NCBI GenBank assembly: GCA_021737145.1
Contig: JAIPEN010000005.1
Location: forward strand, 242,896 to 306,895
Direction: 5' to 3'
DNA: 64,000 bases
Origin: Desulfarculaceae bacterium
Lineage (GTDB): Bacteria > Desulfobacterota > Desulfarculia > Desulfarculales > Desulfarculaceae
Below, piece by piece: positions 37,143-51,347 of this stretch (positions are counted from its first letter, which is position 1; each line of letters opens with the position of its first letter). Position numbers and translations under genes: made by a program. The notes under the pieces are model-generated. The model saw only the letters and a program-made list of their open reading frames with translations. It made no database searches and was not told the DNA's origin.

Positions 37143-40100
37143 TCATCGGTACAACCACACCCGGATCATGGAGATGAGCTTGTCCCGGTCCACCGGCTTG
37201 GGAAGATAGTCGTTGGCCCCGGCTTGCAGGCACTTTTCCCGGTCCACGGGCATGGCCTTGGCGGTGAGGGCGATTATGGGCAGATCCACCAGGCGCTCCT
37301 GGGCCCGTATTTTTTCCATGGCCTGATAGCCGTCCATCACCGGCATCATGATGTCCATGAGCACCAAGTCCACCCCGGGGTCGTCTTCCAGAAGTTGCAG
37401 CGCCTTTTGGCCGTTGTTGGCCTTTATCACCTCCATGCCCAACTCGGAGAGAAGGGCGGCCACCGCGAAGGTGGTGCGCATGTCGTCGTCCACCACCATC
37501 ACCTTCTTGCCGGCCAGCATGGCCTCGCTGTCGTGCAGGTTGCGGATGATCTGGCGCTTGCGGGCGGGCATCTTGCTGACCATGCGGTGCAGGAACAAGG
37601 ACACCTCGTCCAGGAGGCGCTCCTGGGAGCGCACCCCCTTGATGATGATCGACTCGGTGTTTTCCCTGAGCGCCGTCTCCTCCTCCCGGGTCATGTCCCG
37701 GGCGGTGTAGACGATCACCGGCGGGATATCCATGCCCTCCTGTTGCAGGGCCTCCAGGAGCTGCCGTCCGTCCATGTCAGGAAGGCCCAGGTCCAGGACG
37801 ATGCAGTCGTAGTTTTGCTCGCGCAGGGCCTCCATGGCCCGGGCCGCGGTGTCGGCCTCGTCCACCTCCACGTCGCCCCCGCCGATTACCGAGACGGTGT
37901 TGCGGCGCAGCTGTTCATTGTCTTCCACCACCAGCACCCGCCTGGTTCCCTGGGCGGCCACCTGCGCCAGCTTGTCAAAGGCGGCCTCCAACTCCTGGCT
38001 GTCCACCGGCTTGGTGGCGTGGCCCACCGCCCCCTTGCGCAGGGACTCGGAACTGGCCTGTTCCACGGACATGATGTGCACCGGTATGTGCCTGGTGCGG
38101 GTGTCCTCCTTCATGGCCTCCAGCACCGACCAGCCGTCCAGGCCCGGCAGGTGCAGGTCCAGGATGACCGCGTCGGGCAGGTACTCCCGGGCCAGCTCCA
38201 GCCCTGCCTCACCGCTGGCCGCGGCCAGGCACTTGAAGCCCTTGGCGTGGCACTTGGAGTAGAGGATCCTGGCGAAATTGGGATCGTCCTCGACGATCAA
38301 AATCATCCGTTCGCCGGAGGAAATATCCTGGCGGTCGTCCTCGATCTCGGCCTTGGGCTCGGCGGCCTGGGCTCCGGCGGCCTTGGAATCCCGCCACACA
38401 GGGGTGGAGGATTCCTGGACAAAGGAGGGCCTGGCCTGGGCTGGCGGCTTGACAGGGTCCATCCCCTGGAGGGTGGCGGACAGGGCCAGATACACGGTGA
38501 AGGTGGAGCCTTGCCCCGGCCGGCTCTTGACCTCTATGGCTCCGCCCAAAAGATGGGCCAGCTCCCGGGATATGGAAAGGCCTAGGCCGGTGCCGCCGTA
38601 ACGGCGCGAGGTGCTGCCGTCCACCTGCTGGAAGGCCTCGAAGATCACCCTCTGTTCGTGGGGGTCTATGCCTATGCCCGTGTCGGAAACCGACACGGCC
38701 AGAAAATCCCCATCGCCCATTCCGAGCTTGGTCTTGTTCATATCCTCCCGCGGCGGATGGAAGATCACCTCCACCCCACCCTCGTCGGTGAATTTGATGG
38801 CGTTGGCCACCAGGTTCTTGAGTATCTGCTCTATTCGCTGGCGGTCGCTGAAAAGCTCCGTCGGGGCTTCGGGGTCCACCGACACCTTGAGCTCCAGGCC
38901 CTTTTGGTTGGCCATGTGCTCGAAGAAACCACTTATTCCCTGGGCTAGTTCCTCGGTGGCCACCTTGGCGGGGCGCAGGTCGATGCGGCCCGCCTCGATC
39001 TTGGCCAGGTCCAATATCTCGTTGATCAGGTTGAGCAGGTCGCTGCCGCTGGCGTGGATGATCTGGGAAAACTCCACCTGCTCCTGGCTGAGATTGCCCT
39101 CCTTGTTTTCGGCCAGGGCCTGGGCCAGCAGGAGCAGGCTGTTGAGCGGGGTCCTGAGCTCGTGGGACATGTTGGCCAAAAACTCGGACTTGTACTTGCT
39201 GGCCAGGGACAGCTCGGCGGCCTTTTCCTGCAGATCGCTTTGGGCCAGCTCCACTTCCTTTTTCTGGCGGATCAGCAGTTCGTTCTTTATCCTCCAGCTC
39301 CTCGTTGGTGACCTGCAGCTCCTCTTGCTGGGTCCGCAGCTTTTCGTCCGAAGAACGCAACAGGCGGGTCTGCTCCTCCAACTCTTCGTTGGTGGTCCTG
39401 AGCTCCTCCTGTTGGGACTGGAGCTCCTCGGACATCCGCTGCGACTCCTCCAGCAGCCCGGCCTGCACCTCGCGGGCCTGGGCCCCGTCCACGGCAGCGG
39501 CCACGTTCTGATTGACCGCCTCCAGGACGGCCGCCGGATTGCCCGCCGGCTTGCTCAAAAAGCCCAGCTCCAATACGCCGTGCACCCGGTCGTTGTAGAC
39601 AATGGGCTGAATGAGGACAAATCCGGGGCGTATCTCGCCCAGACCGCTTTCGATGGCGTAGTAGTCCTCGGGCACCTCTTCCAGTACCAAGGGCTCTTGG
39701 CTCAGCGCGGCCTGACCCACCAGGCCCTCGCCCGGGCCGTATTGGTACCAGCTTTCCTCGCGGCAACGCAGGGCGTGGCTGCCGGCCAGCCTGAGTTTGC
39801 CCCGCTCGTCGGCCACGTACATCAGGCCCACGGGAGCGCCCAGGTGCTGGCAGAGATAGGTGATGGTCTTTTCGCTCAGCGGCTCGATCTCCTGGTTGCC
39901 GGAGATCAGCTCGGACAGCTCGGCCTGGGCCGCCTTGATGCTGGCCTGTTCCCGAACCTGCATCTCCAGCCGCTTGCGCAACAAGGTCTCGTAAAAGACC
40001 GCGGCCAGGGATTCGGCCGCTTCCTGGTCTCTTTGCCCGTAGCCTCCCTCCTTGTTGGCCAGGGCGATCATGCCCACCGCGCGGTTGTCCCCCATCAGGG

Positions 40101-41964
40101 GCACGCCCAGGAAGGAGGTGAGCTCCGGGTGCCCGGACGGGATTCCCGCGCTGTCCGGATGCACCGAGGGGTTGTCCACGATCAAGGGATCCCCGGTATT
40201 GATGACCCTGGCCCAGATTCCGCGCAGCTCCATGTCCTTGATGAGCATGGTGGCAGTGGAGCCGGGCATCTCGCAGGCATTCCAGCCGGGGTTGCTTATG
40301 CCGATGGTGTCAAAGCGGCCGTCCTGGTTGACCTCCCCGATGAACCCGAACTTGCTGCCGGTGATTTCCTCGGCCACGCGCAGGGCGCTCTGGGCCAGTT
40401 CTTCCTCGCTTTCGCAGGCGAGGGCGTCGCGGAAGACCCTGGCGTTGGCCGAATCGATGCGCGACTTGTGGGCCAGGGATTGCTCGGCCTGTTTGCGCTC
40501 GGTGCCGTCGCGGTTGCTGGCCCGCCGGCCCATGCGCTCCCCTCCCGGCCCGAACACCGGCTGGGAGATGTGTTCGATCCACAGTTCCTCGCCGCCCCTG
40601 GTGATGATCCGGAAGTCCAGCTCGATGGGATCGTCGTGCCTCAGGTCGCTTTCCAGGTGGGAGGCCACCATCTCCTTGTCCTGGGGGTGCACCATGCGCA
40701 GCAGCAGGCCGCTGTCTTGCATGAACTCCTCGGCCGTATAGCCGGTGATGCGCTGGCAGGAGGGGGAGACATAGATGAAGCTGCCGTCCATGCCCCGCCA
40801 CCATTCCCAGTCATAGGTGAAATCAGCCACGGTCTGGAAACGCACCTCGCTGTCGTGCAGGGCCCGTTGGCTCTCCTCTTGTTCCTGCTGCCGCTGCTGG
40901 AGGGCCTCGGTCATCTGGTCGAAGCCCTTGGCCAAAAGCCCCAACTCGCCGACGGCGTGGCTGTCGCCCGCCCTGGCCTCCAGGTCTCCCGCCGCCACCC
41001 GCCGGGTGACATCCAACAGCCGCCCCACCGGCCGGACCACCGAGGCGGTGCCCATGAACCAGGCCACCAACAGGGCCAGCAGGGCCACCAAGCCGACCAA
41101 GGCCAAGTCTTGGATCAGGTTGCGGTTGGCGGTGGCGAAGATTTCCTCTTCCGGAACCGAGAAAAGCACGTAAAGGGCGCCGGAGTCCTTGCCCAGACGG
41201 GTGAAGCCGTAGAGGCGCCGGTTGCCGTGGGCGTCCAAGCCCTCATAAATCCCCTGGCCCTGGGAGGCTATGCGCTCGAGGATGGCTTTGGAGAATTGGG
41301 TCTTGCCGATCAGTCCGGGCTCCGGCGGGTTGTGGGCCAACAGCTTGCCCTGCCCGTCGATCACCGCGAGATGGCCGCTGGCCGACAACTGGGATTGGGA
41401 CAAAAGCTCCCCCAACCAGTCCGTCTTGAGGCCGGTCACCAGAACCGCGGCGATCTGTCCCTCGGCGTTTTTCACCGGGTAGGCCATGGTGAGCACCGGT
41501 TTGCCGCTGATCCGGCCCAAAACATAGTTGCCCACCGAGAACTCGCCGGTTTTCATGGCCTCTTGGTAATACAGGCGGTCCGACAGATTGACGGGGCGCT
41601 TTTTGACCGGGAAGGTGGCGAAGGTCACGCCGGAAGGGTTGGTGGCCAAGAAGGCGGAATACCCCACGGTGCTCTTTATGAGCTTGGCGAATATCTTGGT
41701 GCAGGCCTCGGAGTCCCTTTGCAGCACCGGCGGGAAATGGGAGAGGGTCAGGAACAGCTGGTGGGCCTGGCCGATGATCCGGGATTCGGTCCAACTGGCT
41801 TGGCGGGCCGCTTGCAACACCTCCATGCGGGCGTGGGCGATGTCTTCTTGCCGGTCCCGCACGTTGGACCACACCAGCAGGACCACCGCGGGAATCACCG
41901 CCAAAATGACCAGCAGCATCAGGCGCAGACGCAGGCTGCCCAAGGGTAGACGCTTCATGACCAC
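37143..41964 (-). CDS. large hybrid histidine kinase (Cache-HAMP-PAS-GAF-GAF-HisKA-HATPase-REC x3), split by an apparent +1 frameshift at ~39286
   Basis: N-part 41964->~39288 and C-part (39254->37143) in different frames. Removing one A from GATAAAGAAC gives the continuous ...[56 protein letters not shown]. Confidence 0.88.
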
Positions 41965-42693: not shown

Positions 42694-42761
42694 CTAGATC
42701 ATCCCTCTGCCCAACCGCCTTACAGGGCGCCTGTGCAGGCTGCCCCCGCACCTCCCGGCCC

Positions 42762-42817
42762 CCGTATACCGGTTAGTTGAGTTTAGTTTATTTTAGTTGA
42801 CTTGGATCAGTATACGG
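42762..42817. repeat. three 10-bp phased repeats flanked by an 8-bp inverted repeat (operator-like)
   Basis: CCGTATAC / GGTTAGTTGA GTTTAGTTTA TTTTAGTTGA / GTATACGG. Confidence 0.75.
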
Positions 42818-43049
42818 CACTTACTTTCACTAAAATCAAGCGTAATTTTTGCACCCTGACAAAAAGCTGGACCCCGTTCCAAGAGCGGGAAGGCCGGGCC
42901 GCCCCCGCCCGGCTTCCTGGTTGGCGCTATTCAGCCAGCTTGCCGCCGACGGGCGAGCCAGCCGCCTTTTATGACATTTACAGTAATGGCTCCTGTTCTT
43001 TGCCACCCGGGTTGACAAATCGATCGCCCATGGGATAGCGTAATTTTGG

Positions 43050-43072
43050 TACACCTTATATATATAGGTGTA
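43050..43072. repeat. 7-bp inverted repeat, operator-like
   Basis: TACACCT-TATATATAT-AGGTGTA upstream of the cytochrome/MBL gene cluster. Confidence 0.65.
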
Positions 43073-43376
43073 TATGGTCATAGCACCGAGGGGCCCGATT
43101 TTAGTTTTGCCCGCTTCCTGCGCGCCACATCTCATCTTGTGATTCAACACTGCCAGGGTTTCCCGCCGATTTTGGCAACCAACTATGCGTAATTCATAAC
43201 TTTTACGCACAAGTTTTCTGTTGGTATCACAGGAGTCCCTTATAAAGACATAGTCAAAACCACAGTTGGTGTCCCGCCAGACCCCTCCTTCGGGGAATAC
43301 CCCACCATATTGGTATGTATGGGGTGCGCCCCAGGCGGCCATGGCGAGGCGTCGCCAGGAAGGAGGACCACAGGAA

Positions 43377-43712
43377 ATGGTTTCCCCCCGAAAACCGCGT
43401 CATTTGGTTGTGATCACCTTGGTTTTGCTCGGCCTGATCCTTGGGGCCGCGGGCTTGGTGCAGGCCAAGCTCGGCAAAGAGGTAATGGAAGCCAAGGCGC
43501 AGATGGCCGCCTACAAGGTTTTCAAACAAAAATGCCTGGCCTGCCATGACAACATCGCCGATCCGGAGCGTCCGGGCAAGACCCGCGACGGCTGGACCAT
43601 CGTGGTGAAGTACATGGACGATCACTACGTGAACCTCAACGACCAGGAGGCCGGCCAGATCATCGGCCTGCTCTATGCCATCCGCAAGGGCGAGGAAAAA
43701 GAGCCGGGATAG
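43377..43712 (+). CDS. membrane-anchored/exported monoheme cytochrome-like protein
   Basis: N-terminal TM/signal, single CXXCH (KCLACHDN), RDGWTIVVKYMDDHYVNLNDQEAGQIIGLLYAIRKGE. Confidence 0.72.
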   Translation: MVSPRKPRHLVVITLVLLGLILGAAGLVQAKLGKEVMEAKAQMAAYKVFKQKCLACHDNIADPERPGKTRDGWTIVVKYMDDHYVNLNDQEAGQIIGLLYAIRKGEEKEPG

Positions 43713-43773
43713 ACCGTGCCCGGCCGGCCGACACCAAGCAAGGCAAGTTTTCAATCTTAGGGAGGGATGAGCA

Positions 43774-44871
43774 ATGAAACGCAGAGACTTTCTCAAGGGC
43801 ATGGCCGTAACCGGAGCCGCCGCGGGGGTGAGCGGCGGCTTGGGCCTGATACCCAAGAGCGCCGAGGCCCGCGGCAAGGTGGACTTCGGCCAGGTCAAGG
43901 GGGTCAAGGTCGACGTGCTCAGCGAGACCAGCTGGTTCGACAACGCCGTGTTCAAAAAGGACATTATGGACCACGGCGGGGCCATGACCAACCAGTACAA
44001 GATCCCTTGGAACTGGGACAACGCCGGCGGGTACATGACCAAGATCACGGTTTACCCCCTGGAGGGCGATCCCAAGGTCTTTTTGATGGACACCGGCTGG
44101 AACAACGGCTGGGTGGACTACATCTACGACGAGAAGAGCGACATGGGCAAGCTCCTCACCTCCGGCGAGGTGGACACCATGATCCTCTCCCACTGGCACC
44201 TGGACCACTACTGGGGCATTGAGTCCACCCTCAAGCGCAACCCCAAGATCACCATGTACGCGCCCAAGACCTACTTCCCCGAGGACATGAAGCTGCTCAA
44301 GGGCGGCACCAACGTGGCCAAGGCCAAGGACGGCGGCGAGGTGATGATCAACAAGAACAAGGTGCCCCACCAGGGCAAGCTTGTGCTCACCAGCCCGGAC
44401 GGCGAAAAGGGCACCGGGGTCTACCAGGTCATGCCCGGCATGGCGGTGAAAATGTACGACGTGCCCATCCTGCTCCGGGTGCGCGGCGAGAACGTGCTCT
44501 ACTTCAACGTCAAGGACAAGGGCATCGTCACGGTGACCGGCTGCTGCCACCCCGGCATCCTGACCCTGAACGCCTGGGCGCGGCGCAACGTCAAGGGCTA
44601 CCAACCCTACGGCTGCTACGGCGGGCTGCACATCACCCTGTTCGAGACCTGGGACCCCAAGTTCGACGACATCATCAAGGGCGTGAAGGCCTTCAAGCTC
44701 AAGAAGGTTGGCTGCAACCACTGCACCGGCTGGATCTGGGCCGAGAAGGCGGCCGCCGCCGGAGTGCCCATCGTAAAGGGCACCAACAAGTACAAGACCT
44801 ACAAGCGCACCTCTTCCGTGGCCAAGTCCAGCAACGCCTTCTTGACCAACGGAGACACGGTGGAGTTCTAG
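43774..44871 (+). CDS. Tat-exported metallo-beta-lactamase-fold hydrolase
   Basis: Tat motif MKRRDFLKGMAV; SHWHLDHYWG (HxHxDH); GCCHPG; CNHCTGW near the C-terminus. Confidence 0.88.
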   Translation: MKRRDFLKGMAVTGAAAGVSGGLGLIPKSAEARGKVDFGQVKGVKVDVLSETSWFDNAVFKKDIMDHGGAMTNQYKIPWNWDNAGGYMTKITVYPLEGDPKVFLMDTGWNNGWVDYIYDEKSDMGKLLTSGEVDTMILSHWHLDHYWGIESTLKRNPKITMYAPKTYFPEDMKLLKGGTNVAKAKDGGEVMINKNKVPHQGKLVLTSPDGEKGTGVYQVMPGMAVKMYDVPILLRVRGENVLYFNVKDKGIVTVTGCCHPGILTLNAWARRNVKGYQPYGCYGGLHITLFETWDPKFDDIIKGVKAFKLKKVGCNHCTGWIWAEKAAAAGVPIVKGTNKYKTYKRTSSVAKSSNAFLTNGDTVEF

Positions 44872-44979
44872 ACCAACGATCCGCCCGGGGAGCGGGCCAG
44901 CCCGCCGGCCCGCTCTCCGCCGCGGCAACAGCGGGCGGGCTTTATTCCCCGGGTTCAACCCATGGGAGGGGGTGAAACC

Positions 44980-46218
44980 ATGTCCGACGGCAACGCCAAC
45001 GGCGCCAAGTTCAATTACCTCTACGGCCTGATCAACCTGGCCGTGGTCTTCTGCATCGTATGGTTCCTCTGGTATGTGTTCATGCACGCCGACGGGGTGA
45101 TGAAGCTCTACACCCCCATGTACGGCTTCTCCCTGGTCACGGTGCTGGTGGCCTCGGTCATCCTGCTCAGCCAGGTGCTGGGATGGCCGGCCGATTCCGA
45201 GAAACCCCTGGCCGCGGGCGCGGCCATCGTCCGGGGCATCCTGGGCGCGGCCATCTCGCTGGCCATCATGTACGTGACCTACTATCTGGTCTTCTGGCTT
45301 TTCATCGGCAAGTACGGCGTGGCCTACTTCAGCCCCTCGGCCATGGTGGCCGGCGGGGGCACCGGGGCCGAGCCCTGGAACGCCCGGGAGTGGGCCTCCA
45401 CCGCCATCCTGTACTTCACCACCGCCTTCCTGTGGTGGGCCCTGGTGTGGAACCTGGGCTTCGGGCGCTGGCCTTGGCAGAACGACTCCCACTGGGTGAG
45501 GGGTTGGTCCCGCTTTTTCGTGATCAGCCTGTTGTCCGTCGTCACCTTCGCCCTGCTGTTCCATCCCCATGTGTGCCTGCTGTTCCCCGAGGCCCAAAAG
45601 ATGGTGGGCGCCAAGCCCTGGTGGGAGGGCTGGGCCGACACCTCCAGCGCCTTCTTCGGGCTGGGCGTGGTGTTGTGCACCATGTGGTGGGTGGTCTTCT
45701 CCGGCCTGTTCTGGGAGGGCCGGCCTTGGAGCTGGTTCGACCGCGATGGCGAGGGCAACCTGCTCAAGGGGGTGATCACCTTCCTGGCCACCCTGGCCAT
45801 GGGACTGATCACGGTGTACATCCTGGCGGCAATCTTCAACACCATCTGGATGGAGCCCTACGTGGGCGGCCAATACACCGACGGGCCGGACTGGCGCTTT
45901 ATCCACATGGCCGAGGTGGGCGGCTTCTGCATTTTGTTCGCCTTTATCTGGAAGTATTACTTCAACAACTTCCCCAACGGCGGGCCCTTGCTGCTGCGGG
46001 CGTTTGTGCGCAGCGTCATCGGGGTGACGGGCGGCGTGCTCATCTACTGGTTCTACTACTCGCCCCTAACCAAGTTCTTCCTGGGCAAGGTGCACGGCTG
46101 GGCCCAGCCCGACGACAAACCCCTGGTGTGGACCCTGCTGTTTTTGGCGGTGGTTCTGGTCCAGGCCGAGTTCTTCCACAACTGGCCCCTGCGTTCGGCA
46201 GGGCGGGACCGGGGCTAG
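44980..46218 (+). CDS. polytopic membrane protein of unknown function
   Basis: Many hydrophobic segments (LINLAVVFCIVWFLWYVF, FSLVTVLVASVILLSQVLGW, AISLAIMYVTYYLVFWLF...) between MBL and orphan genes. Confidence 0.75.
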   Translation: MSDGNANGAKFNYLYGLINLAVVFCIVWFLWYVFMHADGVMKLYTPMYGFSLVTVLVASVILLSQVLGWPADSEKPLAAGAAIVRGILGAAISLAIMYVTYYLVFWLFIGKYGVAYFSPSAMVAGGGTGAEPWNAREWASTAILYFTTAFLWWALVWNLGFGRWPWQNDSHWVRGWSRFFVISLLSVVTFALLFHPHVCLLFPEAQKMVGAKPWWEGWADTSSAFFGLGVVLCTMWWVVFSGLFWEGRPWSWFDRDGEGNLLKGVITFLATLAMGLITVYILAAIFNTIWMEPYVGGQYTDGPDWRFIHMAEVGGFCILFAFIWKYYFNNFPNGGPLLLRAFVRSVIGVTGGVLIYWFYYSPLTKFFLGKVHGWAQPDDKPLVWTLLFLAVVLVQAEFFHNWPLRSAGRDRG

Positions 46219-46242
46219 CCCGTTCCCTCGGGGAGCGCATCC

Positions 46243-46509
46243 GTGTCTGATCAGAGCAGACGAGGCTTTTTCCGGGATCTGTTGCGCCAGGGAGCCAAGA
46301 CCGTGTCCGCCTTTAACGAGGGCCGCGAGGAGCAGCGCCTCAAACAGGAGCGCGACGCCTTTTTCGGCTCCTACGAGTCTTCTTACGCCCTCACCCTGTG
46401 CGAGGACGAGTTGCTGATCGAGACCGCCCAGATGGCGGGCATCGAAACCGAGGGCAAGGAGCGCCTGGACATCGCCAAGGAGCTCTTCGCCTTGCAGGGG
46501 AGTTTCTAG
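46243..46509 (+). CDS. 88-aa protein of unknown function
   Basis: Intact ORF closely spaced after the membrane protein; N-terminal SRRGFFRDLLRQGAK (Tat-like but no hydrophobic core). Confidence 0.6.
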   Translation: MSDQSRRGFFRDLLRQGAKTVSAFNEGREEQRLKQERDAFFGSYESSYALTLCEDELLIETAQMAGIETEGKERLDIAKELFALQGSF

Positions 46510-46526
46510 GCCCCGTGGAAACCCTG

Positions 46527-47399
46527 ATGCGCAACCTGGTGGACGGCCTGTGGCTGTCGGCCACCTGGGTGGAGCGGCTGCGCTCCGAGTTGGGCCTGGC
46601 CGGACTGCACCAGGTGTGGTCCGAGCGCCCGGCCTGGTACGTGTGGCTGGCCGGCGAAGCCGGAGCCTTTGGCCTGGAGCTGCTCCAGGCCGAGCAGGAC
46701 CGTGGCCTGGCCCGCGGCCTGTTCATGGTCAAATACTATCCCTCCCCAGCGGGCGGCCTGTGGGAGAGCTTTTCACTTGAGGAACGCGACCTGGCGGGGG
46801 TGTCCTTTGATCAAAGCGGCACCCCCGCCTTCGAGGCCCGGGAGCATATCCCCCCTCACCTGTTCCAGGTGGGGGCCCTGGAGATCATCACCAACCTGGA
46901 CCGGGAGTGGTGCGGCTTCAGCTTGTGCGCCCTGAGCCAGTGCCGCTGGGTGGGGCCGGACGGCGGCCTGGCGCGCAACGTCCCGGGCTGGCGCCTCAGC
47001 CACACCCTGCTTACCAAGATGCTGGGCCTGCACGCCTACACCAGCAAGCACACCCCGGTGCTGGCCGGGTTCAGCCAGGAGCCCGGCCTGGAGGTGCGCC
47101 TGGATGAAGCGGGGCGGGACGAGAGTGTCTTATGCCCCCAGACCAAGGCATATCAGCTCAGCCTGATCTTCGGCTCCGAACCGGGGCGTCCGCCCCTGAG
47201 CCAGGAGGCCTGGCAAGAGATCAGCCCCCCCACCACCAGGCAGGGCCAAAGCTGGGAGCAGGGCTTTTCCTGCCGCCACTATCATCCCTGGGAGGCCTCG
47301 GCCGAAGGCCTCCCCGTGCTGAGCCCCCTATGGTGGAGCCTGGCCGAGGTGGGCTACACCTCGGAGCTGGCCTCGTCCTGCGGCTGCGAACACTGCTAG
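46527..47399 (+). CDS. Cys-rich-tailed protein of unknown function
   Basis: ~290 aa, ends ...ASSCGCEHC; same cluster; alternative GTG start at 46515. Confidence 0.6.
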   Translation: MRNLVDGLWLSATWVERLRSELGLAGLHQVWSERPAWYVWLAGEAGAFGLELLQAEQDRGLARGLFMVKYYPSPAGGLWESFSLEERDLAGVSFDQSGTPAFEAREHIPPHLFQVGALEIITNLDREWCGFSLCALSQCRWVGPDGGLARNVPGWRLSHTLLTKMLGLHAYTSKHTPVLAGFSQEPGLEVRLDEAGRDESVLCPQTKAYQLSLIFGSEPGRPPLSQEAWQEISPPTTRQGQSWEQGFSCRHYHPWEASAEGLPVLSPLWWSLAEVGYTSELASSCGCEHC

Positions 47400-47561
47400 G
47401 CCGCCAAGCGCGCCTCTCCCTTACTAAGGCTTAATCGCACCTCGCCCCTTGCATTGCCCGCCCGGGGAAGCTATCTCTATTCCCGGGGCCGGGGCCTAAG
47501 CTCCCCGCCCCACCCTCAAGCCACTTTGGCCCCAGGGCCGGAAGAGACAGGTGTGAAGCGC

Positions 47562-48506
47562 ATGGCTGACGACAACGCGGTGATAGTGGAGGTGGGGCCC
47601 CGCGACGGCCTGCAATACGAGGGCGGTTTCTTCCCCACCCCGGACAAGATCGAGCTGATCAACCGCCTGTCCGCCTCCGGGCTGAGGCGCATCGAGGTGA
47701 CCTCTTTCGTGCACCCCAAGGTCATCCCCGCCCTGCGCGACGCGGTGGAGGTGTTGGAGGGAATCCGCAAGGAGCCGGGCGTGGTCTACAGCGCCCTGGT
47801 GCCCAACCTCAAGGGATGCCGGCGCGCCCTGGAGACCCCGGTGGACGAGATCGCCCTGTTCGTATCGGCCAGCGAGGCGCACAACCAGAAGAATGTGGGC
47901 ATGTCCAGTCAAGAGTCCCTGGCCGGTTTCAAGGAAATCGCCAAGCTGGCCCTGGCCGAGGGGCGCAGCCTCAGGGGCTATGTGGTCACCGCCTTTGGCT
48001 GCCCCTACGAGGGGGCCATCCCCGAGCAGCGGGTGCTGGCCCTGGCCCGGGCCTACGCGGACATGGGCGTGGCCGAGGTGTCCCTGGGCGACACCACGGG
48101 CATGGCCAACCCGGTAATGGTGCGCCAGCGGATGGCCCGCCTGGCCGGGGAGCTGGAGGGCCTGCGCCTGGCGGCCCACTTCCACAACAGCCGGGGGTTG
48201 GGCCTGGCCAACGCCTATGCGGCCCACGAAGCCGGGGTGCGCATCTTCGACAGTTCGGTGGGCGGCCTGGGAGGCTGCCCCACCGCGGTGGGGGCCATGG
48301 GCAACGTGGCCAGCGAGGACCTGGTGAACATGCTGGAGGAGATGGGGGTGGACACGGGCGTGGACTTCGCCAAGCTGATGAAGGCCACCGAGCTTATCGA
48401 GCAGGTGCTGAGCACCCGGGCGGCCTCCTACACCAGCCGCCAGGGGCGCCCCGCCTGGCAGGCCGGGCCCGGCCGGAAAGAGCCCGCCGCCTGTTCCGGC
48501 GATTAG
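47562..48506 (+). CDS. hydroxymethylglutaryl-CoA lyase-like
   Basis: VEVGPRDGLQYEG, RRIEVTSFVHPKVIPALRDA, HFHNSRGLGLANAYAAHEAGVRIFDSSVGGLGGCP. Confidence 0.9.
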   Translation: MADDNAVIVEVGPRDGLQYEGGFFPTPDKIELINRLSASGLRRIEVTSFVHPKVIPALRDAVEVLEGIRKEPGVVYSALVPNLKGCRRALETPVDEIALFVSASEAHNQKNVGMSSQESLAGFKEIAKLALAEGRSLRGYVVTAFGCPYEGAIPEQRVLALARAYADMGVAEVSLGDTTGMANPVMVRQRMARLAGELEGLRLAAHFHNSRGLGLANAYAAHEAGVRIFDSSVGGLGGCPTAVGAMGNVASEDLVNMLEEMGVDTGVDFAKLMKATELIEQVLSTRAASYTSRQGRPAWQAGPGRKEPAACSGD

Positions 48507-48581: not shown

Positions 48582-51347
48582 CTAGGCCAGCTTTTCCACC
48601 TTGACCGAGCAGGCCTTGTATTCGGCGGTCTGGGAGACCGGGTCGTAGACCGGGTTGGTGAGCCAGTTGGCGCAGCCCTCCCGGAAGTGGAAGGCCATCC
48701 ACACCATGCCCTCCTGAACCTGCTTGGTGACCCGCGCTCTCACCTCCACCTCGCCGCGCCGCGAGCTGACCTTGACCCGCTCGCCGTCGCTGATGCCCAG
48801 CTTGGCCGCGTCGGCCAGGGAGATGTCGGCGGTTTCCTCGCCCAACAGGTCGTTGAGCCCGGCGCAGCGGCCGGTCTGGGTGCGGGTGTGGTAGTGGTAC
48901 AGGCGGCGGCCGGTGCTGAGCACCAGGGGGTACTCCTCGTCGGGCACCTCGGCGGGCGGGGTCCACTCCACCGGGGTGAAGTTGCCCAGGCCGCAGGTGA
49001 AGCAGCCTTCCTTGTGCAGATAGGGAGTGCCCGGGTGGTCCAGGTCAGGCACCGGCCACTGGAGGCCGTCGTTTTCGATGCGCTCGAACTTGATGCCCAC
49101 CATCTGGGGAGCCAGCACCGAGATTTCGTTGTCCCAGATCTCCTGGCCGCTGTTGGCCTCCCAGTCGTGGCCCATGCGCTTGGCGATCTCCTTGAACACC
49201 CACCAGTTGGGCTTGGAGACGCCCGGCGCCTCCACGGCCTTGCGCACCCGGCTCACCCGGCGCTCGCTGTTGGTGAAGGTGCCGTCGTCCTCGCTCCAGG
49301 CGGTGGCGGGCAGGATCACGTCGGCGAAGCGGGTGGTCTCGGTGGGGAAGATATCGTTGCAGACCATGAACTCGGCCGATTCCAGGCAGTGCTCCACGTG
49401 GCGGATGTCCGGCTCGGTGTTGGCCAGGTTTTCGCCGAATACGTAGAAGGCCTTGACCGTGCCGTCCACCAGGCCGTCCATCATGGCCGGCATCATCAGG
49501 CCGTTGTTGGGCGAAAGCTCCGCCCCCCAGGCCTCTTCGAACTTCTTGCGGGCCGCCTCGTCGATCACCTTCTGGTAGCCGGGATACACATTGGGCAGGG
49601 CGCCCATGTCGCAGGCTCCCTGCACGTTGTTCTGGCCGCGCAGGGGGTTCACCCCGCCGCACTCGAAGCCCACGTTGCCCAGGAGCATTTGCAGGTTGGC
49701 GCAGGAGAGCACGTTGTTCACGCCGCAGGTGTGCTCGGTGATGCCCAGGGTGTAGATGAGCATGGCCGGCTTGACCGAGGCCAGCTTGCGGGCCACGGCC
49801 ACGATGGTCTCGGCCGGCACCCCGGCCACCTCCGCCGCCCGCTCGGGCGGCCACTCCAGCACCTTTTCCTTGAGCGAGTCAAAGCCCACGGTGCAGCTTT
49901 GCACGTAGTCCTTGTCGTAGAGCTCTTCGCTGATGAGCACGTGCATCAGGCCGTTGATAAAGGCCACGTCCGAGCCCACCTTGATGGGCACGTGCATTTG
50001 GGCGTGCTCGGCGATGCCGCTGTAGCGCGGGTCCACCACGATCATCTGGGCCCCGTCCTGCACCGCCTGCTTGAGGAAGGTGGCGGCCACGGGATGGGCC
50101 TCGGTGGTGTTGGAACCGATGATGAAGAACATCTTGGCTTTGGGGAAATCCTCAAAGCTGTTGGTCATGGCCCCGGAGCCGAATGCAGTCGCCAGACCGG
50201 CGACGGTGGGGGCGTGTCAGGTTCGTGCGCAGTGATCGATGTTGTTCGTACCGATCACCGCGCGGAAGAGTTTTTGCATCTGGTAGGAGTCTTCGTTGAT
50301 GCTGCGGGCGCAGCTTACTCCGGCCAGGGCGTCGGGGCCGTGCTTCTGTTTGATCTCCATGAACCTGTTGGCCACCAGGTCCAGGGCCTCGTCCCAGGAG
50401 GCCTCGGCAAAGGAGCCGTCCGCCTGCTTGATCAGGGGGGTGGTCAGGCGCTCGTCGGAGAAGATGAAGTCATAGCCGAAGCGGCCCTTGACGCACAGCC
50501 GGCCCTTGTTGGGGCTGCCGTTCTCCACGCCGGTGACCTTGACGATCTTGCCGTCCTTGACGTGCAGCCAGAGCTGGCAGCCCACCCCGCAGTAGGGGCA
50601 GGTGGTGCGCACCTTTTCCACGTCATTGGCATAGGCCAGGCCGTAGGCCTTTTTCTCGAACAAGGCCCCCACCGGGCAGGCCTGCACGCACTCGCCGCAG
50701 TGGGTGCAGTTGTCGTAGTCCACCAGGGGGTACCAGCCCTGGTCCGGGTCCTGGTCCTTGCGCGGGCCCCAGGGGGCGGGGATGGCCCGGTTGACCTGCA
50801 CCTCGTTGCAGGCGGCCACGCAGCGGCCGCACTGGATGCAGCGGCTGAAGTCGCGCACGATCATGGGGTGCTCGTCGTCCAGGGGGAACTCGCCGCTGGG
50901 CGGCTCCTGGGCGGCCACGGTGACCCCGTACTCCACGGCCAGGTCCTGCAAACGGCAGTCGCCGTGGGCCGGGCATATCTGGTCGTGCCAGGGGCGGGAC
51001 ATGGTTTCGATCTGGAAGCTGGTCCACTTCTCGGGCGGCAGGTCCATGACCAGACAGTTGTGCTGGCCCGAGGCCAAGAGCATCTCCAGGATGCCTTTGC
51101 GGGCCTCGCGCACCCGGGGGCTGTCGGTCTTGACCTCCATGCCCTCGGCGGCCGGGGTCTCGCAGGAGGGCAGCAACCGGTCGGACCCGGCCACCTCCAC
51201 CACGCACACCCGGCAAACGCCGCTGGCCTGGGTCTGGGGCAGGTGGCAAAGGGTGGGGATGGTTATCCCCGCGGCCTTTGCCGCCTCCAGAATGGTCTGG
51301 CCCGGCTCGAAGGGGACCTCCCTACCATTTATCTTGATTTGAGACAT
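48582..51347 (-). CDS. fdhA: formate dehydrogenase alpha subunit, selenoprotein (in-frame TGA = Sec at 50217-50219)
   Basis: 2Fe-2S/4Fe-4S N-terminus plus [54 protein letters not shown] reads continuously through TGA in the same frame. Confidence 0.93.
50188..50204 (-). promoter_or_regulatory. bacterial SECIS hairpin of fdhA
   Basis: Minus strand GTCGCC-GGTCT-GGCGAC, 6-bp stem with GGTCT loop; loop begins 18 nt after TGA. Confidence 0.85.

Follow-up and report, generated by a model that had tools for sequence, protein, structure and literature searches.

The solved protein chains 7dck, 2p4z, and 3h3e (TM1679), which we take to be metallo-beta-lactamase (MBL)-fold hydrolases of the DHPPS type (COG1237), are the closest of the solved chains (7dck at E 2e-21, 2p4z at 6e-21) to an exported enzyme encoded in a 64,000-nt stretch of Desulfarculaceae DNA (contig JAIPEN010000005.1, positions 242,896–306,895; this whole stretch is referred to below as the window). 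The operon that holds the enzyme gene also encodes a small c-type cytochrome, a ten-helix integral membrane protein, an 88-aa protein, and a ~294-aa protein, the last with longer homologs that are fused to a GTPase of the CobW/COG0523 kind. In an excerpt of a paper on such GTPases (PMC9164220), the CxCC motif is given as their metal-binding mark, known from nitrile hydratase, zinc, and cobalamin maturation, and many COG0523 clusters are said there to have no characterised member. Here we describe the operon as a conserved four-gene core with an accessory cytochrome, and tentatively read it as a periplasmic module that hydrolyses a compound and imports the product.

To sample the locus, contigs were scanned with seven aligned MBL proteins as the query, yielding 204 relatives, from which the best 80 were kept—a sample biased to closer relatives of the MBL protein. 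When these 80 loci were re-scanned with profiles, every one gave the MBL protein; the membrane protein turned up in 73, a member of the ~294-aa family in 71, one of the 88-aa family in 49, and the cytochrome in only 16. The membrane-protein gene lay 12–274 nt from the MBL gene and always on the same strand (73/73 loci), following it in 50 loci and preceding it in 23. Such recurrence of gene pairings, with the membrane protein (73/80) as with the ~294-aa family (71/80), is far above chance. A previous reading made from the sequence alone (the sequence-only reading) had proposed an undescribed system of five closely spaced, co-directional genes. All five open reading frames (ORFs) indeed lie on the + strand as described, separated by gaps of about 61, 90, 24, and 5 nt, and the genes do co-occur in other genomes; the conserved unit, however, is a core of four genes, to which the cytochrome is accessory: its gene is maintained at two different positions, in 12 loci 5′ of the MBL gene and in four 3′ of the ~294-aa gene. 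The seven loci with no membrane-protein gene nearby (L055, L056, L057, L062, L063, L081, and L086) include two, L056 and L086, in which a contig end falls near the MBL gene.

Two architectures could be told apart. Type I, to which the window belongs, consists of the genes for the MBL enzyme, the membrane protein, and the 88-aa and ~294-aa proteins, with the order of the latter pair swapped in some loci; type II, seen in loci titled Desulfovibrio, Arcobacter, and SAR324, runs from the membrane protein to the MBL enzyme and then to a fusion protein of ~600 or more aa. Overall, the module recurs in many anaerobes, including sulfate reducers, syntrophs, and loci titled Sporomusa, Arcobacter, and SAR324. 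Additional full copies (L160, from Desulfosarcina widdelii, and L161) occur where a genome already has the operon, and each such second copy is accompanied by a divergent PAS regulator. A plasmid collection searched with a Desulfovibrio-type MBL protein gave no match.

A scan of 395 genomes of the phylum, the window's own included, gave profile matches to the membrane protein in 31, to the MBL protein in 41 (E ≤ 1e-20), and to the ~294-aa family in 20. Strong membrane-protein matches (E < 1e-40) were confined to 18 genomes, and all 18 encode the MBL protein, adjacent and on the same contig in 17; in the eighteenth (G084) the two genes lie on different contigs, each at a contig start. The ~294-aa family is likewise present in 18/18, mostly adjoining, with one member (G183) on another contig. 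The remaining 13 membrane-protein matches are weak and make up a second tier, discussed below, and two genomes (G214 and G289) hold the ~294-aa family without the MBL and membrane proteins. Within the window's genus the distribution is patchy, with the membrane protein of the operon in four of eight genomes, the window's among them. Moreover, the pairwise distances of the MBL, membrane, and ~294-aa proteins correlate across 58 loci (r 0.89, 0.78, and 0.75; reached by 0 of 1000 permutations), which fits a shared history of the three proteins, to which shared descent contributes, and does not by itself demonstrate interaction.

The MBL protein scores above the Pfam cut-off for Lactamase_B and carries a twin-arginine translocation (Tat) signal (PF10518 at 25.2 bits, cut-off 22.7; TIGR01409 also above cut-off). 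Its motifs read HWHLDH and ...CNHCTGW, and an alignment of 33 relatives shows no variation at H140, H142, D144, H145, H259, H286, H316, C257, or C317. We thus place it in the DHPPS-type branch of the MBL-fold metallohydrolase superfamily, with a predicted role as a hydrolase. An antibiotic-resistance metallo-beta-lactamase was considered and rejected, the class B models scoring below cut-off (NF012229 at 23.9 of 100 bits, NF033088 at 12.8 of 200). Four of 15 additional loci have selD beside a cytosolic MBL relative devoid of a Tat signal (L138, L139, L140, and L150, all from one Desulfobacterota family; TIGR00476 above cut-off for the one selD protein scanned), and these relatives possibly form a selenium-linked branch; selD was found near the core in none of the 80 main loci.

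How the enzyme might acquire its metal is suggested by the ~294-aa family. In long homologs, CobW (PF02492) and CobW_C (PF07683) domains come after this domain (both of the two scanned, from Desulfovibrio-type loci), and among 19 long homologs CxCC follows the first domain in all and a strict P-loop is present in 18. Fusion to a CxCC-bearing CobW/COG0523 GTPase suggests that the enzyme may be loaded with metal before Tat export. This fusion escaped the sequence-only reading, which had otherwise correctly called the window protein an orphan: like the membrane protein and the 88-aa protein, it has no Pfam or NCBIfam match. Short forms of the family end in two close cysteines in 35 of 48 cases, and a protein of the Nitro_FeMo-Co family is encoded near the core in 14/80 loci. 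The 88-aa family shares a conserved SYExSYALTL..EIL.ETA..GI pattern. The Sporomusa ovata locus (L062) has the genes for the 88-aa and ~294-aa proteins 5′ of the MBL gene but none for the membrane protein, and the genome encodes only a weak, distant relative of the membrane protein, located elsewhere; this gene set argues that the two helpers go with the MBL enzyme.

Structure prediction, which had been put forward for the membrane protein and the orphans, gave confident models of the membrane protein (pLDDT, the predicted local distance difference test, 89.5; ten long helices) and of the ~294-aa protein (pLDDT 92.8), and neither found a PDB fold match at E ≤ 0.001 with Foldseek. That the membrane protein lacks a recognisable family was therefore borne out in Pfam, NCBIfam, and PDB. 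A likeness to a five-helix designed barrel (Z 9.0, root-mean-square deviation [rmsd] 6.5, 248 aligned) lies within chance for helical models, and the highest score for the ~294-aa protein, among whose rows were several of Bet v 1/START fold, was Z 4.9 (rmsd 4.1, 122 aligned); neither was used.

Both termini of the membrane protein are most likely cytoplasmic, because positive charge is concentrated on their side (a mean of 14.4 lysines plus arginines versus 5.3 on the opposite side in 67 sequences). Conservation of at least 80% is seen at 30 loop positions, 23 of them on the periplasmic side, which is that of the exported enzyme, and the 82 main-group sequences hardly vary at E143, H201, H203, Q212, R312, and H315. 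The second tier (13 sequences) keeps only H315 of these six, together with E318. Its 14 loci (L122–L129 and L153–L158) contain neither an MBL gene nor a ~294-aa gene; acyl-coenzyme A (CoA) synthetase, CoA-transferase, or beta-oxidation genes are nearby in nine of them, as compared to 9/80 core loci, and an activating enzyme directly adjoins the membrane-protein gene in six. Since these relatives adjoin acyl-CoA synthetases and CoA-transferases, carboxylate import is suggested, and the second tier is a candidate carboxylate transporter family. Around the core itself, short-chain dehydrogenase/reductase (SDR) genes of one cluster end 6, 6, and 138 nt 5′ of the MBL match in L037, L038, and L047, the one of the three scanned (L037) being nearest to 3-hydroxybutyrate dehydrogenase, and Fe-S/CCG and GlcD-like genes lie 3′ of the operon in L069, L070, and L146, the last with no membrane protein near the MBL gene. 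Together with the second-tier neighbours, these genes weakly suggest carboxylates or hydroxy acids.

We combine these observations into a periplasmic hydrolyse-and-import module, to which we assign a probability of about 0.38. The ~294-aa protein, with a CobW/COG0523-type GTPase that is fused in some lineages and would act in trans here, and with help from the 88-aa protein, would load the MBL metal centre in the cytoplasm. The folded, metal-loaded enzyme would then leave by way of its Tat signal and, at the conserved face of the membrane protein, hydrolyse an ester-, lactone-, or thioester-like compound in the periplasm. The released product, probably a carboxylate to judge from the relatives, would be taken up by the membrane protein, and the cytochrome, where present, might give or remove electrons.

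Several observations weigh against this proposal. Regulators are the commonest neighbours of the core (sigma-54/PAS in 29/80 loci, PAS in 16/80, GntR in 17/80), and across the 80 loci no catabolic enzyme is constantly found beside it. The L037 SDR scores 202 bits, below its family cut-off of 307. Five of the 14 second-tier loci (one of them a 3.3-kb contig) have no carboxylate-activating or beta-oxidation neighbour, and the E143, H201, H203, and R312 pattern is absent from the relatives that adjoin acyl-CoA synthetases, so that transport is not simply transferable to the main group. The window's ~294-aa protein has no G3E GTPase domain (PF02492, Pfam), and none of the four PF02492 matches in the window's genome was identified as its partner. 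Finally, hydrolysis and import leave the cytochrome unexplained.

The cytochrome is the starting point of the main rival, a periplasmic redox module in which the MBL protein has an unusual, perhaps iron- or cluster-type, centre and passes electrons to or from the cytochrome while the membrane protein links it to the quinone pool. The cytochrome's two positions beside the core, in two locus groups (12 and 4), fit this account, as do its nearest Pfam and NCBIfam matches, SorB and amine-dehydrogenase heme subunits, all of them below cut-off. So do the dedicated metal-handling partners (the CobW fusion and the Nitro_FeMo-Co proteins) and the invariant C257 and C317, which adjoin the metal ligands. 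Yet 64 of the 80 loci have no cytochrome, H201 and H203 are absent from remote membrane-protein relatives, and the membrane protein matches no heme- or quinone-protein family, which makes a redox module rather unlikely in our view. The sequence-only reading had spoken of a redox/hydrolytic pathway; its redox half comes from the cytochrome and from nothing else, and the hydrolytic half is better supported because the MBL protein retains its metal ligands and membrane-protein relatives adjoin carboxylate-activating enzymes. A bolder proposal is a new kind of periplasmic metalloenzyme system: an MBL enzyme with a non-standard metal centre, inserted before Tat export by a dedicated GTPase-linked maturase and complexed with a ten-helix membrane protein of a new class, be it permease or electron-transfer partner, across several anaerobe phyla. 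We consider it rather unlikely as well.

Alternatively, the enzyme could be an exported detoxifying or salvage hydrolase for which the membrane protein serves as anchor, exporter, or sensor instead of importer. The prevalence of regulators among the neighbours, the seven of 80 Tat-MBL loci with no nearby membrane protein, and the second operon copies argue in this direction, and the tight pairing with the 10-transmembrane (TM) protein in 73/80 loci argues in the other, as do the carboxylate-activating enzymes encoded near relatives of that protein; we regard such a role, too, as rather improbable. Metal or cofactor acquisition, in which a metal or a selenium/sulfur species freed from a carrier by the MBL protein would enter through the membrane protein and pass to the CobW-linked protein, would account for the COG0523 fusion and the Nitro_FeMo-Co proteins, and is in line with selD beside cytosolic MBL relatives in one family (4/15 loci, outside the 80). 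We deem it very unlikely, as no metal-responsive regulator was recognised, selD is beside none of the 80 main loci, and the remote relatives of the membrane protein are associated with acyl-CoA metabolism.

The operon's features are collected in Table 1.

Table 1 Genes and motifs of the operon in window coordinates
Feature	Position	Strand	Remarks
Small exported monoheme c-type cytochrome	43377..43712	+	111 aa; accessory; ORF calls and Pfam/NCBIfam
CLACH heme motif of the cytochrome	43533-43547	+	residues 53-57
Tat-exported MBL-fold metallohydrolase (hydrolase role predicted)	43774..44871	+	365 aa; core; Pfam Lactamase_B and TAT_signal
HWHLDH motif of the MBL protein	44191-44208	+	
10-TM integral membrane protein, no known family	44962..46218	+	418 aa; core; predicted model
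88-aa cytoplasmic protein, N-terminus SRRGFF...	46243..46509	+	GTG start; core
~294-aa cytoplasmic protein, C-terminus SCGCEHC	46515..47399	+	GTG start; core; probable metal-loading factor

The cytochrome gene is preceded by AAGGAGG ~10 nt 5′ of its ATG, and copies of the cytochrome from the same genus are 64–69% identical. Only the operon is common to the closest relatives: the window's histidine kinase, response regulator, and formate dehydrogenase have no counterparts in matching positions beside the relatives' operons, so the upstream sensor/response-regulator island drops out of the system in which it had been included. Nor did the upstream intergenic region live up to its description as complex, since an Rfam scan of the whole window gave no match and a promoter/terminator scan of 42700–47700 no excess over shuffled sequences. 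A sigma-54 −24/−12 element was rejected as a general feature, being found with at most one mismatch in 4/29 loci with and 3/46 without a sigma-54 regulator (five loci were dropped because their upstream sequence was too short); there is none in the window. In type II loci (L059–L080), a PAS-domain protein and a GntR/FCD regulator co-occur upstream (16/80 and 17/80).

Directly 3′ of the operon, the window encodes a hydroxymethylglutaryl (HMG)-CoA lyase (47562–48506, +; NF004283 above cut-off), which was discarded as a sixth member as it had no match in the loci of the five closest relatives or in the 80 loci. Beyond it, a formate dehydrogenase alpha-type gene (48582–51347, −) has an in-frame TGA at 50217–50219 in the context HCART-U-HAPTV; the codon is probably read as selenocysteine, and the two listed ORFs are a single gene. 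On the other side, the histidine-kinase region (37143–41964, −) looks frameshifted, with a wrong-frame tail in ORF 38209–41964 and the kinase core continuing in ORF 37143–39254 (−).

The claim of an undescribed system, belonging to no known pathway, has held: no assignment emerged, and no description of the operon was found in open-licence PubMed Central full texts. The enzyme and the GTPase are of known kinds; for the membrane protein and the ~294-aa domain, none of the family libraries searched gave a match. The module ties two families with no counterpart in Pfam, NCBIfam, or PDB to a defined exported metalloenzyme. If our reading is right, a COG0523 GTPase fusion would gain a probable client, a new family of membrane transporters would be recognised, its substrate class inferred, and there would be a testable case in which metal is loaded ahead of export by Tat.

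Each component can be set against a known system. The cytochrome has its best NCBIfam match in SorB-type sulfite dehydrogenase cytochromes (NF052246, E 1.2e-4), and membership was rejected, as its 22.1 bits fall short of the 93-bit cut-off; the operon has no SorA-type molybdenum partner. SLAC1/TehA channels have ten helices like the membrane protein, and carboxylate permeation by it is conjectured; it gave no Pfam match to PF03595 and an hhalign probability of 0.4% (against two SLAC1 proteins only), and in a structural second look the TehA rows had an rmsd of 17.6, with a Z of 3.9 for the VIA row. The long homologs share GTPase, CobW_C, and CxCC with the COG0523/CobW metallochaperones Nha3, ZigA, and CobW (PMC9164220). 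Unlike those metallochaperones, they add a ~280-aa N-terminal domain of no recognised fold, and the window protein is this domain alone. As for the enzyme, the HxHxDH, GC[SC]H, GG[LF]H (GGxH), and HC[TS]G-type motifs of the DHPPS-type hydrolases align with it in the 7dck and 2p4z alignments; in contrast to these hydrolases, it is longer, bears a Tat export signal, an added N-terminal SETSWFDN region, and GCCH, and usually has a membrane protein and a probable metal-loading protein as its partners.

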